Positions 45,369-53,463 of a stretch of 64,000 nucleotides of DNA are shown here, piece after piece. The notes under the pieces were generated by a model. The model made no database searches, was not told the DNA's origin, and worked only from the letters and a program-made list of their open reading frames with translations. Positions within the stretch are counted from its first letter, which is position 1; every line of letters begins with the position of its first letter. This stretch comes from Algoriphagus boseongensis. Lineage in GTDB: Bacteria; Bacteroidota; Bacteroidia; Cytophagales; Cyclobacteriaceae. The position numbers were made by a program, and so were the translations under genes. Where the stretch lies: the NCBI RefSeq assembly GCF_004362805.1, contig NZ_SNYF01000006.1:310001-374000 (forward strand), written 5' to 3'.

Positions 45369-46838
45369 ATGAAGAAAAAGGCTTTGATCATAGGTTCGGG
45401 AATTGCCGGCATAGCATCCGCACTTCGCCTTGCGGCTAAAGGCTTAGAGGTGGAAGTCTTTGAAGCCAATTCCTATCCCGGTGGAAAGCTTTCAGAAATA
45501 GAAATCAAAGGGTATCGTTTTGATGCAGGGCCTTCTCTTTTTACCCTACCTGAGCAGGTGGAAGAGCTCTTTCGACTATTTGGAAAAATTCCTGAGGATT
45601 ATTTCGAGTATACCCAGTTGGAGGTTGCCTGCAATTATTTCTGGGAAGACGGAAAGCGAATTCAGGCTTTTGCAGATTTGGGGAGGTTTGCAGATGAGGT
45701 GGAGTCCAAATTGGGAGAGCCGGGAGGAAATGTAAGAAAGGCTTTGCAGCGCTCTTCCTTTATCTATGAGCATTTGGCTCCGCTTTTTATGCATCGCTCA
45801 CTGCACAAATTTGGCACTTGGACCAATCCTCAGGCGCTAAAGTCTTATCTCAAAATGGGAAAACTGGGAATTTTCTCCACGATGAATCAGGCTAATGAGG
45901 AGCTTTTTTCCAATCCCAAGCTAGTCCAGCTTTTCAATCGCTATGCGACGTATAACGGTTCGGATCCTTACCAGACTCCTGCTACCCTAAATATCATTCC
46001 TCATCTGGAGTTCAATATCGGAGCCTATTTCCCTAAAAAAGGGATGCATGACATTACCCAGAGCCTTTTCCGGCTGGCGAAATCCCAAGGAGTGACTTTT
46101 CATTTCAATTCCAAAGTGGAGGAAATTCTCGTGGAGAATGGAAAAGCTGTGGGAATCAAGGCTGGTGATCAGGAAATTATGGGAGATCTGGTGGTCAATA
46201 ATATGGATATGGTCAATGCATACAAGACCATCCTCCGAAAACAAAAGCAGCCGAAGAAATTATTGGAGCAACCCAAATCCAGTTCGGCCCTGATTTTTTA
46301 TTGGGGAATTAAAAAGGTCTTCCCCGAATTGGAATTGCATAACATCCTGTTTTCGGAGGATTACCGGACAGAGTTTTCCCATATTTTCAAAAAAGGGAGT
46401 ATCTACTACGACCCGACAGTATATATCAATATAACCTCGGTTCACAAGCCAGATGATGCACCGGAAGGATGCATGAATTGGTTTACAATGATCAATGTAC
46501 CCAACAATCAAGGTCAGGATTGGGATCAGCTGATTGCCGAAGCCAGAAAAAATATCATTTCCAAAGTCAACAGGATTCTGAATACGGATTTGGAATCCTT
46601 AATAGAAGTAGAGGAGATTTTGGAGCCAAGGACCATAGAATCAAAAACTTCTTCTGCTCAGGGAGCGCTTTACGGGAATAGCTCCAACAACAGATTCGCG
46701 GCCTTCCTGAGACATGCGAATTATTCCTCTTCCATTAAAAATCTCTATTTCTGTGGAGGCTCGGTTCATCCGGGAGGAGGCATACCTCTTTCCTTGCTTT
46801 CTGCAAAAATCATGAGTGAGATGATCAGTCTGCAGTAG
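45369..46838 (+). CDS. crtD: Carotenoid desaturase, CrtI/CrtD family
   Basis: A 489-residue FAD enzyme. The N-terminal fold is ALIIGSGIAGIASALRLAAKGLEVEVFEANSYPGGK, followed by FDAGPSLFTLPE. The C-terminal FAD motif is YFCGGSVHPGGGIPLSLLSAKI. It resembles the Bacteroidota 1-hydroxycarotenoid 3,4-desaturases (CrtD), which act late in the route to monocyclic carotenoids, more than phytoene desaturases; that distinction is a judgement from the motif context. No crtB, crtI or crtY lies within the window. Its stop codon is inside an inverted repeat shared with recX. Confidence 0.82.
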   Translation: MKKKALIIGSGIAGIASALRLAAKGLEVEVFEANSYPGGKLSEIEIKGYRFDAGPSLFTLPEQVEELFRLFGKIPEDYFEYTQLEVACNYFWEDGKRIQAFADLGRFADEVESKLGEPGGNVRKALQRSSFIYEHLAPLFMHRSLHKFGTWTNPQALKSYLKMGKLGIFSTMNQANEELFSNPKLVQLFNRYATYNGSDPYQTPATLNIIPHLEFNIGAYFPKKGMHDITQSLFRLAKSQGVTFHFNSKVEEILVENGKAVGIKAGDQEIMGDLVVNNMDMVNAYKTILRKQKQPKKLLEQPKSSSALIFYWGIKKVFPELELHNILFSEDYRTEFSHIFKKGSIYYDPTVYINITSVHKPDDAPEGCMNWFTMINVPNNQGQDWDQLIAEARKNIISKVNRILNTDLESLIEVEEILEPRTIESKTSSAQGALYGNSSNNRFAAFLRHANYSSSIKNLYFCGGSVHPGGGIPLSLLSAKIMSEMISLQ

Positions 46839-49397: not shown

Positions 49398-51122
49398 ATG
49401 GAGTACGTCTGGAAACAAAAACCTAAAGCATCCCAAGCAGCTATTGAAAAGCTAGGAAAGGAAATCAATGTGAATCCTACCCTGGCCAACATGCTGATCA
49501 ATCGTGGTGTGGATAATTTTGATCAGGCGAAGGACTACTTCCGCCCTAGTTTGAGCCAATTGCATGATCCTTTTTTGATGAAGGACATGGAAGCAGCGAT
49601 TCAAAGAATTGAAAAGGCTGTAGTTGGTCAGGAAAAAATTCTGGTCTATGGAGATTACGACGTAGACGGAACCACGGCTGTGGCTCTGGTTTATGGTTTT
49701 TTAAAAGGGTTTTATCCCCATGTGGATTTTTATATCCCAGATCGATATAAGGAAGGTTACGGGATTTCCGAGCGGGGAGTAAGATTCGCCGCAGAGAGTG
49801 GATTTTCCTTGGTCATTGCACTGGATTGTGGGATCAAAGCCATTGACAAAGTCCGATTGGCGGCTGAATTGGGAGTTGATTTCATCATTTGTGATCACCA
49901 TACACCGGGAGAAGAGCTTCCCGCAGCGGTGGCAGTTTTGGATGCTAAAAGAGAGGATTGTACCTACCCTTACAAGGAATTGAGCGGATGTGGGGTTGGA
50001 TTTAAATTGATTCAAGGCTATGCCAAAAGGCATGGAATTGAGGAATCTGTCTTATACCCATACCTGGATTTGTTGGCGGTAAGTATTGCTGCCGATATCG
50101 TACCAATCACTGGAGAAAACCGAATCTTGGCCTATTACGGTTTGGATAGGATCAACAATACTCCAAGACCTGGACTTAAGGCTTTGATCATTCAGGCCAA
50201 AGTGGAAAAGGAAATCCAGATTTCAGATATAGTTTTTAAAATCGGCCCAAGGATTAATGCTTCGGGAAGATTGGAACATGCAAAGGCCTCCGTTGAGCTT
50301 TTGATTTCCTCTAATCTCGATGAAGCAATCGAGCGAGCAAAATTGGTCGATGAGGTCAATTCTACGAGAAGAAACTTTGACGAAAACATCACCAAGGAAG
50401 CTTTTGAAATGCTGGCGGCACGGGAAGAGGAAGCTGAGTGGAATTCCACAGTTTTGTTCAAAGAGGATTGGCATAAAGGGGTGATTGGAATTGTAGCTAG
50501 CCGCTGCATTGAAAAATATTACCGCCCTACGATCATCCTGACAGAATCCAATAACAAGGCAACTGGAAGCGCCAGATCGGTAGTAGACTTCGATATCTAC
50601 GAAGCCATTGCGGAATGCGCTGAGCTTTTGGACCAATTCGGTGGGCACAAGTATGCCGCAGGTCTTACCCTTTCGGTGGAAAATGTTCCGGCATTTCAGG
50701 AAAAATTCGAATTGGTAGTTCGAAGCAGAATTGAAGAAGTTCACAGAAAGCCCGTAATTGAAGTGGATGATGTGCTGCTTTTGGACCAGATCAATTACAA
50801 GTTTTATAATATCTTGAAGCAGATGGCACCATTTGGTCCGGGGAATACCGAACCTGTTTTTCGAATCAATAATGTCTATGCAGACGAGGTAACTGTCTTG
50901 AAAGACAAACATCTTCGATTCAAAATCGTGCAAGATGGGCAAGTGACTACGCCGGTTTGTTTGGGTTTTGGGATGGCAGATCGAGCCAAAGATCCTGACC
51001 TGACTACCGTTAATTTGCTCCGTGCTAAAATGAGATTCGACATTGTGGCAGAGATGCGGGAGAATTTCTTCCGGGACAAAAGTAGTTTGCAACTCTACGT
51101 GAAAGACATCAAATTTGACTGA
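49398..51122 (+). CDS. recJ: Single-stranded-DNA-specific exonuclease RecJ
   Basis: A 574-residue 5'-3' exonuclease of recombination and mismatch repair. The DHH phosphoesterase motifs are intact: [34 protein letters not shown] and SGCGVGFKL. The DHHA1 region includes [24 protein letters not shown] and [11 protein letters not shown], and a C-terminal OB domain follows. Its stop lies one base before the lptB start at 51124. Confidence 0.96.
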
Positions 51123-51123
51123 T

Positions 51124-51861
51124 ATGATTCTTCGAGCTGAACACCTGGTCAAAATTTACAAAGGTCGCCGAGTGGTGAATGATATTTCCGTGCAGGTGGA
51201 GCAAGGGGAAATCGTCGGACTTTTAGGTCCAAATGGAGCAGGAAAGACTACTTCTTTTTACATGATTGTAGGTCTGATTCAACCCAATGAGGGAAAGATT
51301 TTTTTGGAGAATGAGGAAATCACTGATCTTCCTATGTACAAAAGAGCCAAACTTGGAATTGGCTATTTGGCTCAGGAGGCTTCAGTTTTTCGAAAACTTT
51401 CTGTGGAGGAAAATATCATGGCTGTTTTGGAAATGACCAAAATGCCAAAGGCTCAGCAAAAGGAAAAAGTGGAAAGTTTGCTGGAGGAATTTAGCTTAAC
51501 CCATGTCCGAAAAAACCTTGGGATGGTGCTCTCTGGTGGAGAAAGAAGGAGAACTGAGATTGCAAGAGCTTTGGCAGTAGATCCAAAATTTGTCTTGTTA
51601 GACGAGCCATTTGCAGGAGTTGACCCAATTGCGGTTGAAGAGATTCAAACTATTGTAGCCAAGCTGAAGACAAAAAATATCGGCATATTGATCACCGACC
51701 ACAATGTTAACGAGACCCTTTCCATCACCGATCGGGCATATTTGATGTTTGAAGGTAGATTGCTAAAGGCGGGATCGGCAGAGGAATTGGCGGCAGACGA
51801 GCAAGTCAGAAAAGTCTACCTCGGTAGCCAGTTTGAGCTCAAACGAAAAGTTTTTAATTAA
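51124..51861 (+). CDS. lptB: LPS export ABC transporter ATPase LptB
   Basis: The 245-residue ATPase that powers LptFG in LPS extraction. It has Walker A ([11 protein letters not shown]), the Q-loop in [24 protein letters not shown] (an LptB hallmark), signature [15 protein letters not shown], Walker [14 protein letters not shown] and the H-loop [11 protein letters not shown] chose the ATG at 51124 over the TTG at 51115, which overlaps recJ. Its stop shares a base with the GH3 start. lptC is at 12835, and lptFG are not in the window. Confidence 0.95.
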
Positions 51862-53387
51862 TGGAGGTGCTTAACAGCTTCATGACCTGGATTTTTAAAA
51901 GCCGACTGGGTCAAATCGAAAATTTCAAAACCAATCCCATCGAGGTCCAGGAAGCCACTTTCAGGTCCCTGATTGATTCAGGGAAACGCACAGAATTCGG
52001 GAAGAAATATGGGTTTTCCGGGATCAATACTTACAGAGATTTCGCTGCCCAAGTGCCTGTTTTTGATTACGAAACCTTCAAGCCCTATATCGAGAAAACC
52101 ATGCTTGGAAAGCAAAATGTGGTTTGGAATACCGATATCGAATGGTTTGCAAAGTCATCTGGAACTACCTCCAGCCGAAGCAAGTACATCCCAGTGTCTG
52201 AAGAAAGCTTGGAGGAATGCCATTACAAAGGTGGAAAAGACATGGTTTCCCTGTACGTTAATAATTATCCTGAGACGAAATTATTTACAGGAAAAAGTCT
52301 TTCGATTGGAGGCACACTAGAGAAGAATCCCCTGAACCCAGAAGGCACTGCCCGTGCAGGCGATGTCTCGGCAGTCATAATGCAGAACCTTCCAATCTGG
52401 GCTCAATTCGCGAGAACCCCTTCCTTGGAAACGGCCTTGATGAGTGAGTGGGAAGCCAAAATTGAAAAAATGGCAAGGGAGACCATGAACGAAAATGTCA
52501 CTTCCATTGCTGGGGTTCCGACATGGACGGTGGTTTTGCTTCAGCGGATTTTGGAATTAAAGAAAGCCAAGCATGTTTTGGAGGTTTGGCCCAACTTGGA
52601 GGTATTCTTTCATGGAGCGGTGGCTTTTGGTCCCTATACAAGTCTGTTCAGGGAATTGATTCCTTCTGAAAAGATGCGCTATATGGAAACTTACAATGCT
52701 TCCGAAGGCTTTTTTGGAATTCAAGACCAGCCAGATTCTGAGGATTTGCTGCTCTTGTTGGATTATGGGATTTTTTATGAATTCATCCCAATGGAAGAAT
52801 GGGGATCAGAAAATCCAAAAGTTATCCCTTTGGAAGAAGTTGAGGTGGGTAAAAACTATGCAATCATCATTTCAACCAATGGAGGACTTTGGAGATACCA
52901 GATTGGAGATACGATCAAATTCACCTCAGTTTTACCTTACCGATTTAAAATTTCCGGGCGAACCAAGCATTTCATTAATGCTTTTGGTGAGGAAGTCATC
53001 GTGGAAAATGCCGAGAATGCAATTCAGTACGCCTGTGAACAGACAGGAGCAACCTTAAGCAATTTTACGGCAGCACCGGTTTATTTTGAAGGAAATGGCT
53101 CTAAAGGAGCTCATGAATGGGTGGTCGAATTCAATAAAGAACCAGATTCGATCGAGGAATTTGCAAACTTGCTAGACAACCGACTGCGTCAAATCAATTC
53201 TGATTATGACGCAAAACGCTATAAAAATCTTGCCTTGAATCGTCTGATTTTGCACCCGGCCCCTCATGGACTTTTTGAGGCTTGGCTCGGAAAAAAGGGA
53301 AAGCTCGGTGGTCAATACAAAGTGCCAAGGCTTTCGAATTCCCGAGAATATATCGATGAGATTTTGGAGATGATGAAAAAGCAATAA
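51861..53387 (+). CDS. GH3-family protein (acyl-adenylate/amidosynthetase fold)
   Basis: A 508-residue protein of the GH3 family, known in plants for conjugating hormones to amino acids and widespread but uncharacterised in Bacteroidota. Visible motifs are the ATP-loop WFAKSSGTTSSRSKYIP, YNASEGFFGIQ (adenylate-binding) and WRYQIGDTIKF, with FKISGRTKHFINAFGEEV marking the C-terminal lid. It overlaps lptB by one base, so coupling to LPS export is suggested. The acyl substrate and acceptor are unknown. Confidence 0.9.
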   Translation: MEVLNSFMTWIFKSRLGQIENFKTNPIEVQEATFRSLIDSGKRTEFGKKYGFSGINTYRDFAAQVPVFDYETFKPYIEKTMLGKQNVVWNTDIEWFAKSSGTTSSRSKYIPVSEESLEECHYKGGKDMVSLYVNNYPETKLFTGKSLSIGGTLEKNPLNPEGTARAGDVSAVIMQNLPIWAQFARTPSLETALMSEWEAKIEKMARETMNENVTSIAGVPTWTVVLLQRILELKKAKHVLEVWPNLEVFFHGAVAFGPYTSLFRELIPSEKMRYMETYNASEGFFGIQDQPDSEDLLLLLDYGIFYEFIPMEEWGSENPKVIPLEEVEVGKNYAIIISTNGGLWRYQIGDTIKFTSVLPYRFKISGRTKHFINAFGEEVIVENAENAIQYACEQTGATLSNFTAAPVYFEGNGSKGAHEWVVEFNKEPDSIEEFANLLDNRLRQINSDYDAKRYKNLALNRLILHPAPHGLFEAWLGKKGKLGGQYKVPRLSNSREYIDEILEMMKKQ

Positions 53388-53463
53388 TTAAAACCCTTCG
53401 TCAAAAACCTTCCTGAAAATCCGGATTCAGGGATTATATTGAATTTCAATTGCCCAATAATTC

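Follow-up and report, generated by a model that had tools for sequence, protein, structure and literature searches.

Why should a bacterial gene of the GH3 family, whose plant members conjugate hormones, begin on the last base of a gene for LPS export, and what does its product make? The question is raised by a locus of Algoriphagus boseongensis that lies in the stretch of DNA analysed here, 64,000 nucleotides of contig NZ_SNYF01000006.1 (hereafter the window). Three genes of the plus strand follow each other head to tail: recJ (49398..51122, TGA at 51120-51122; TIGR00644, 511 bits with a cut-off of 397) opens the run, lptB for the LPS-export ATPase comes second (51124..51861, ATG at 51124 and TAA at 51859-51861; TIGR04406, 378 bits with a cut-off of 240) and a gene for a predicted GH3 acyl-acid amido synthetase of 508 amino acids, belonging to the group called A below, comes third (51861..53387, ATG at 51861). 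A sequence-only reading of this DNA had described the run as gapless and the GH3 start as sharing a base with the lptB stop. Indeed, recJ and lptB are spaced by a single base, and lptB and the GH3 gene overlap by one, the A at 51861 that is common to TAA and ATG in the pentamer TAATG (51859..51863, plus strand). The first ATG is supported and the overlap is no artefact of start-codon choice, because an alignment of 32 sequences, that of the window among them, shows M1, N5, T9, W10, K13 and R15 to be invariant or conserved to at least 90%. A GGAGGTG motif is located just inside the GH3 start, ahead of a second in-frame ATG (51861-51886); the N-terminal conservation favours the first one. Directly 3' of the GH3 stop there is a terminator-like hairpin (53410..53433, plus strand), which is a weak consensus match, the search having returned 7 such sites in the region with 4.8 expected. 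Genes for a transglycosylase and an M24 peptidase are located downstream of the GH3 gene. A few genes upstream of the run, positions 45369-46838 encode the 1-hydroxycarotenoid 3,4-desaturase CrtD (662 bits, cut-off 500).

By homology, the protein is almost certainly a GH3-type adenylate-forming amide synthetase with the general chemistry of this family. The Pfam domains PF03321 (230 bits), PF23571 (80 bits) and PF23572 (100 bits; cut-offs 23.6) occur in this order, and the nucleotide motifs SSGTT (99-103), NASEG (279-283) and GLWRYQIGD (342-350) are intact. The AlphaFold model, calculated with 32 sequences, has a mean pLDDT of 82.6, and a Foldseek comparison with the PDB returned plant GH3 amide synthetases as all of the 28 best matches, the top one with a TM-score on the query of 0.77. 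Domains and predicted fold therefore support the enzyme type that the sequence-only reading had proposed. Plant GH3s such as JAR1, GH3.12, GH3.6 and VvGH3-1 share the adenylate-forming architecture, the motifs and the predicted fold with the window protein (TM on the query 0.76-0.77 for the best chains of 9fwd, 4b2g, 4epl and 4epm). However, they are only about 15-19% identical to it, their solved chains comprise 575-620 amino acids in contrast to 508, and their acids are hormones and related small acids.

The view that bacterial GH3s are largely undescribed, as the sequence-only reading had put it, needs updating, since OlsH of the planctomycete Singulisphaera acidiphila was described in 2025 (PMC12493201). 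Amino-lipid synthesis by a bacterial GH3 is thus already known: OlsH is reported to be a lyso-ornithine lipid synthetase that uses free fatty acids and forms N-acyl-ornithine, and its activity was abolished when S115 was changed to Ala (PMC12493201). According to the same paper, more than 7500 OlsH homologues exist, almost 90% of them in Bacteroidota and some in genomes with several GH3s; its authors regarded ornithine as an unlikely substrate in Bacteroidota and suggested other amino acids (PMC12493201). The exchange of clade B and GlsB described below offers a function to test for the GH3s of Bacteroidota, the bulk of the bacterial OlsH homologues by that count. The window protein resembles OlsH in family, length (508 and 526 amino acids), the three nucleotide motifs and the essential serine, of which S100 is the counterpart. 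The OlsH model NF052613 matches it over residues 21-507. The score of 409 bits, in a comparison made through this one NCBIfam model, remains below the cut-off of 620, so that by the model the protein is not OlsH. Moreover, no OlsI-type alpha/beta-hydrolase gene is found beside the window GH3, whose neighbours are recJ, lptB and the transglycosylase and M24 peptidase genes.

The GH3 proteins of Bacteroidia fall into three groups. In a tree of 89 rows, which was calculated by a quick method and in which long branches were flagged, clades B and C each received a support of 100, and group A with the window protein comprises 66 rows with a support of 90. Two further A-type rows (G041 and G045) stand beside A at an unresolved fork, and A is therefore not proven to be one clade. 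On average, A and B share 36% identity, A and C 31% and B and C 30%. The residues S100, G101, T102, A280, S281, E282, G342, W344, Y346, G349 and D350 are at least 90% conserved in all three groups; S100 is invariant in 32 group A sequences. In a survey of 99 genomes of the class, at least 95% complete, PF03321 was found in every genome. Group A was called where PF03321 scored 140 bits or more across almost its whole length and the gene did not belong to clade B or C; it is present in 94 of the 99 genomes, in two as divergent copies (G150 and G179). Clade B occurs in 62 (profile A2, built from five sequences, at least 540 bits, next match 490) and clade C in 53 (profile A1, at least 634 bits, next match 425), most members of the groups being placed by score and not by tree. 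The genome of the window has group A only. Eight positions of the substrate pocket (95, 98, 99, 171, 243, 451, 453 and 491), chosen for being conserved within the groups and different between them, are group-specific, and none of them predicts serine. Among the matches listed in the literature search (open-licence PMC papers), neither this division, nor the exchange of clade B and GlsB described below, nor group A as a ligase candidate was found.

It is clade B that links the bacterial GH3s to a pathway. The glycine-lipid acyltransferases GlsB and GlsA of Bacteroides likely belong to the same pathway as the enzymes considered here, and a glsA-glsB-like pair is located on another contig of the window's genome, where a 273-aa acyltransferase gene overlaps a 319-aa PF13444 gene. 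Since it carries this pair, the genome should make N-acyl-glycine. GlsB is a member of another family, however, and its relation to the GH3s comes from the distribution of clade B and not from homology. PF13444, the marker of the known N-acyltransferases of amino lipids, was split by length and score into GlsB-type frames of 306-359 aa and OlsF-type frames of 546-931 aa. This split is our own; short or weak matches (151-377 aa) were not counted as GlsB, and PF13444 can miss divergent N-acyltransferases. Thus defined, 38 of the 99 class genomes have a GlsB-type gene, 24 an OlsF-type gene and 37 neither, the latter comprising 34 genomes with no PF13444 match and three with weak matches only (G147, G177 and G187). 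Clade B is present in all 61 class genomes that have no GlsB-type gene and in one of the 38 that do (G017). GlsB-type genes were also found in none of 14 further class genomes that are positive for clade B by PF03321 score, one of them (G029) being checked in the tree; G064 has an ambiguous PF13444 match of 370 aa and 36 bits. GlsB-type and OlsF-type genes occur together in none of the 99 genomes, which sits uneasily with a report on Labilibaculum, where GlsAB was found alongside an OlsF homologue (32% identity; PMC12927429).

A second draw of 127 genomes of the order, four of them shared with the class draw, gave the same picture, with clade B in 108, a GlsB-type gene in 10, both in none and neither in nine. 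Three weak PF13444 matches were not counted in this draw (G270, 275 aa, 37 bits; G216, 305 aa, 32 bits; G215, 532 aa, 35 bits). Each of these genomes has clade B; if the match of G216 were a GlsB, this genome would add a second exception. Exactly one of the two genes is thus found in 98/99 class genomes, 118/127 order genomes and 212/222 genomes combined, of which 167 have clade B only, 45 GlsB only, one both and nine neither. The nine comprise six genomes of family f89, five of 0.7-1.2 Mb and one of 1.9 Mb, and three others, among them G222 with a clade-B-like fragment of 215 aa. Counted by family, 47 have clade B only, 16 GlsB only and five both kinds. Within the four families that vary in both genes (f1, f3, f59 and f84), all 28 genomes carry exactly one, a fit that was reached in none of 200,000 within-family shuffles; family f4, home of the genome with both, was left out of this test because clade B does not vary in it. 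Such shuffles leave some relatedness, and the independent exchanges number at least a handful rather than 28. The switch can even be seen within a single genus (g129), in which G288 has GlsB and G297 clade B.

The almost perfect complementarity ties bacterial GH3s to glycine lipids, and from the distribution it is likely that clade B does the job of GlsB and makes N-acyl-glycine. The same product would arise by different chemistry, with clade B forming an acyl-adenylate from a free acid and GlsB transferring an acyl group, in parallel to OlsH and OlsB/OlsF in the case of ornithine. Clade B would hence be a candidate route to glycine lipids in those Bacteroidia that have no GlsB. Match counts alone had pointed to an extra, third GH3 as the replacement of GlsB, a candidate that was superseded by clade B after the clade-specific searches.

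For the step catalysed by group A, the Gly-Ser lipids are instructive. Bacteroidota of the gut, the mouth and the environment produce these lipids (430, 654, flavolipin), which occur in several families of the phylum and are reported to be ligands of TLR2. For instance, flavolipins and glycine lipids were described in Labilibaculum (PMC12927429) and lipid 430 in Algibacter (PMC6864645), and in Chitinophaga lipid 430 occurred in 23 of 25 metabolomes and Gly-Ser-Orn lipids were among the core metabolites (PMC8433624). Gly-Ser lipids are absent from a glsB mutant of B. thetaiotaomicron, and, as a review suggests, serine may be added to the glycine lipid (PMC10191378). The gene for ligating serine "remains to be identified", and glsAB alone is reported not to have given rise to Gly-Ser lipids (PMC12746155); in the excerpts of that paper, the domain search covers PF02222, PF00668, PF00860, PF00501, PF04262 and PF07478, and GH3 (PF03321) is not among these six. 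No proposal of a GH3 in Gly-Ser lipid synthesis, or of a function for Bacteroidota GH3s, was present among the matches listed in a search of open-licence PMC papers. In the available parts of PMC12927429, which holds both "GH3" and "glsB", the former appears only in the reference to the OlsH paper, and those of PMC11631085 and PMC12479983 add nothing on GH3.

Amide formation between an N-acyl-glycine, through its carboxyl group, and serine, through its amino group, corresponds to the chemistry of GH3 enzymes, and group A is therefore proposed as the serine ligase. We favour the explanation that group A is a GH3 amide synthetase for amino lipids that acts right after the first N-acylation, and we would give it a probability of roughly 0.42. 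In the first step, GlsB, or the sister clade B in other species, would make N-(3-hydroxyacyl)glycine. Group A, a soluble enzyme, would then convert a carboxylic acid, namely the glycine carboxylate of the N-acyl-glycine lipid, to the acyl-adenylate with ATP and Mg2+ and transfer the acyl moiety to the amine of a second amino acid, for which serine is the best guess. The product would be the Gly-Ser lipid 430, and O-acylation would give lipid 654 (flavolipin). The parts of this scheme differ in strength: group A probably acts in amino-lipid synthesis, and the naming of serine as its amine and of N-acyl-glycine as its acid is tentative. The near-universal group A is nevertheless a concrete and, in our view, the leading candidate for the serine-adding enzyme of Gly-Ser lipids. 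The "lipid or acyl-amino acid" substrate that the sequence-only reading had offered as an example fits both the homology to OlsH and the swapping of the sister clade with GlsB, although no substrate is proven.

Most of the distribution of group A agrees with a step that comes after N-acyl-glycine. GlsB or clade B was detected in 99/99 class genomes and group A in 94/99. In family f89, group A is retained in the four genomes that have clade B, and five reduced genomes carry neither any GH3 nor GlsB. Among the nine genomes with neither GlsB nor clade B at the cut-offs, group A is absent from five and present in three, and G222 has group A in addition to its fragment. Several observations count against the proposal. 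Group A is found with neither clade B nor GlsB in the three genomes G234, G272 and G319, of which the latter two are split into about 290 and 530 contigs and G234 is fuller (about 70 contigs) and has a second GH3 that was not placed in a group. Conversely, five class genomes have clade B and no group A (G125, G160, G187, G132 and G165). Near-universality alone fits any core role. Furthermore, the annotation of chosen group A neighbours revealed no enzyme of lipid synthesis, and the glsAB-like pair of the window's genome is located on another contig; apart from recJ and lptB, the genes around group A differ from family to family, and no neighbourhood of group A or C named a substrate.

If group A adds serine, the scheme might be extended to a GH3 relay in which the N-acyl-glycine made by clade B or GlsB receives serine through group A and ornithine through clade C, an extension that we consider rather unlikely. 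If true, it would explain the formation of the Gly-Ser and Gly-Ser-Orn lipids by a peptide-lipid assembly line that is neither ribosomal nor of the NRPS type and is built from homologues of plant hormone-conjugating enzymes.

The strongest alternative, unlikely as it seems to us, is that group A resembles OlsH in linking a free fatty acid directly to a single amino acid, one that is not ornithine, and is not a second-step ligase. As OlsH uses free fatty acids (PMC12493201), group A could by analogy N-acylate an amino acid directly, and the OlsH model scores the window protein (409 bits) and three tested clade B proteins (402-417 bits) alike. However, each of the 99 class genomes already possesses GlsB or clade B, and a second direct synthetase in 94 of them would need a separate near-universal product, none of which was found described. 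More doubtful still, and in our judgement improbable, is a role like that of the plant GH3s, whose substrates are hormones, namely the conjugation of small acids in detoxification or signalling. The plant GH3 fold and motifs speak for this activity, and it is at odds with the near-universality of group A in the class and with its retention alongside clade B in four genomes of 0.9-1.9 Mb, which suggests a core product.

This leaves the neighbourhood of lptB, which had led the sequence-only reading to suggest a substrate linked to the outer membrane. The best 80 of 581 confirmed loci, 59-85% identical to the window gene, represent a sample of close kin (Algoriphagus, other Cytophagales and Pedobacter). 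In 74 of these best 80 of 581, the GH3 gene is preceded by lptB on the same strand, at a distance of no more than 220 bp in 69 loci and of up to about 0.7 kb in the other five; the overlap of one base recurs in 20 of the 80 and a gap of 0 in seven. Of the remaining six, three have full flanks and no upstream lptB (L035, L038 and L063), and three are on short contigs (L043, L047 and L065). In Cytophagales and Pedobacter, the gene order is conserved far more than chance would give. An even draw across the phylum (118 genomes) contained 29 Bacteroidia, of which 28 have a long-type GH3 by PF03321 score and the 29th (G064) a lower-scoring gene of the same group by tree. Here, lptB lies within 250 bp of the GH3 gene in nine genomes; in G111 a single gene separates the two, and the remaining 19 have lptB elsewhere. 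The order is kept by family, with 7/7 genomes in f1, f2 and f3, 2/5 in f4 (three with G111) and 0/11 in f6. It is thus stable in a part of the Bacteroidia, absent in the rest and not general across the class, and the expected association of GH3 homologues with lptB in Bacteroidota stood for the close kin and not for the class.

In 17 chosen genomes, lptB itself was sought. All ten genomes without group A that were tested retain it (G217, G230, G256, G280, G298, G125, G160, G187, G132 and G165), and G243 has groups A and B and no lptB match. Since ten of ten tested genomes lacking this GH3 retain lptB, LPS export is probably not its business. The five reduced f89 genomes have lost GH3 and both the known and the suspected maker of N-acyl-glycine, and lptB stayed. 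The proposed coupling to lptB, missing as adjacency in 19-20 of the 29 Bacteroidia, is hence not supported as a reason for an outer-membrane substrate; a link to LPS export beyond the shared operon is not supported, and the arrangement probably is incidental. The notion that the enzyme serves LPS itself by amidating a carboxyl group of the core or of the lipid A path, which would explain the upstream lptB in close relatives and the strict order in f1 to f3, is the least credible of all, given the genomes that keep lptB with no group A, its non-adjacent position in most sampled Bacteroidia and a sister clade that tracks GlsB.

Some features of the other GH3 genes may be added. In family f38, clade B occurs with no group A in all three genomes searched (G125, G160 and G187). 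Clade B follows a gene for an M23 peptidase at locus L161; at L162, it is followed by a 61-aa frame and the gene for 1-deoxyxylulose-5-phosphate reductoisomerase; at L164, the gene after clade B belongs to the same cluster as this reductoisomerase gene. The neighbours of clade C vary by locus and encode a LysE-type translocator, a transglycosylase, a glycosyltransferase, an alanine-racemase-like or an outer-membrane protein. A replacement of OlsF by clade C was considered and rejected: none of the 24 OlsF genomes of the class set has clade C, but three of six further clade C genomes have OlsF (G053, G099 and G115). In another class of the phylum, a GH3 protein of 1175 aa is encoded at L159:7104-10631, with the GH3 part starting at about residue 673 and no Pfam family matching the part before it. 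Two loci, L157:7046-9595 and L158:7099-9645, encode a fatty-acid hydroxylase domain (PF04116) fused to GH3, the domain of L157 being OlsE-like with 187 bits, below the cut-off of 475. The fusion gene of L157 is accompanied by genes for a P450, an acyltransferase-like, a methyltransferase-like and an enolase-superfamily protein, and three of the neighbour clusters recur at L158. The fusion locus looks like a natural-product cluster using GH3 chemistry.
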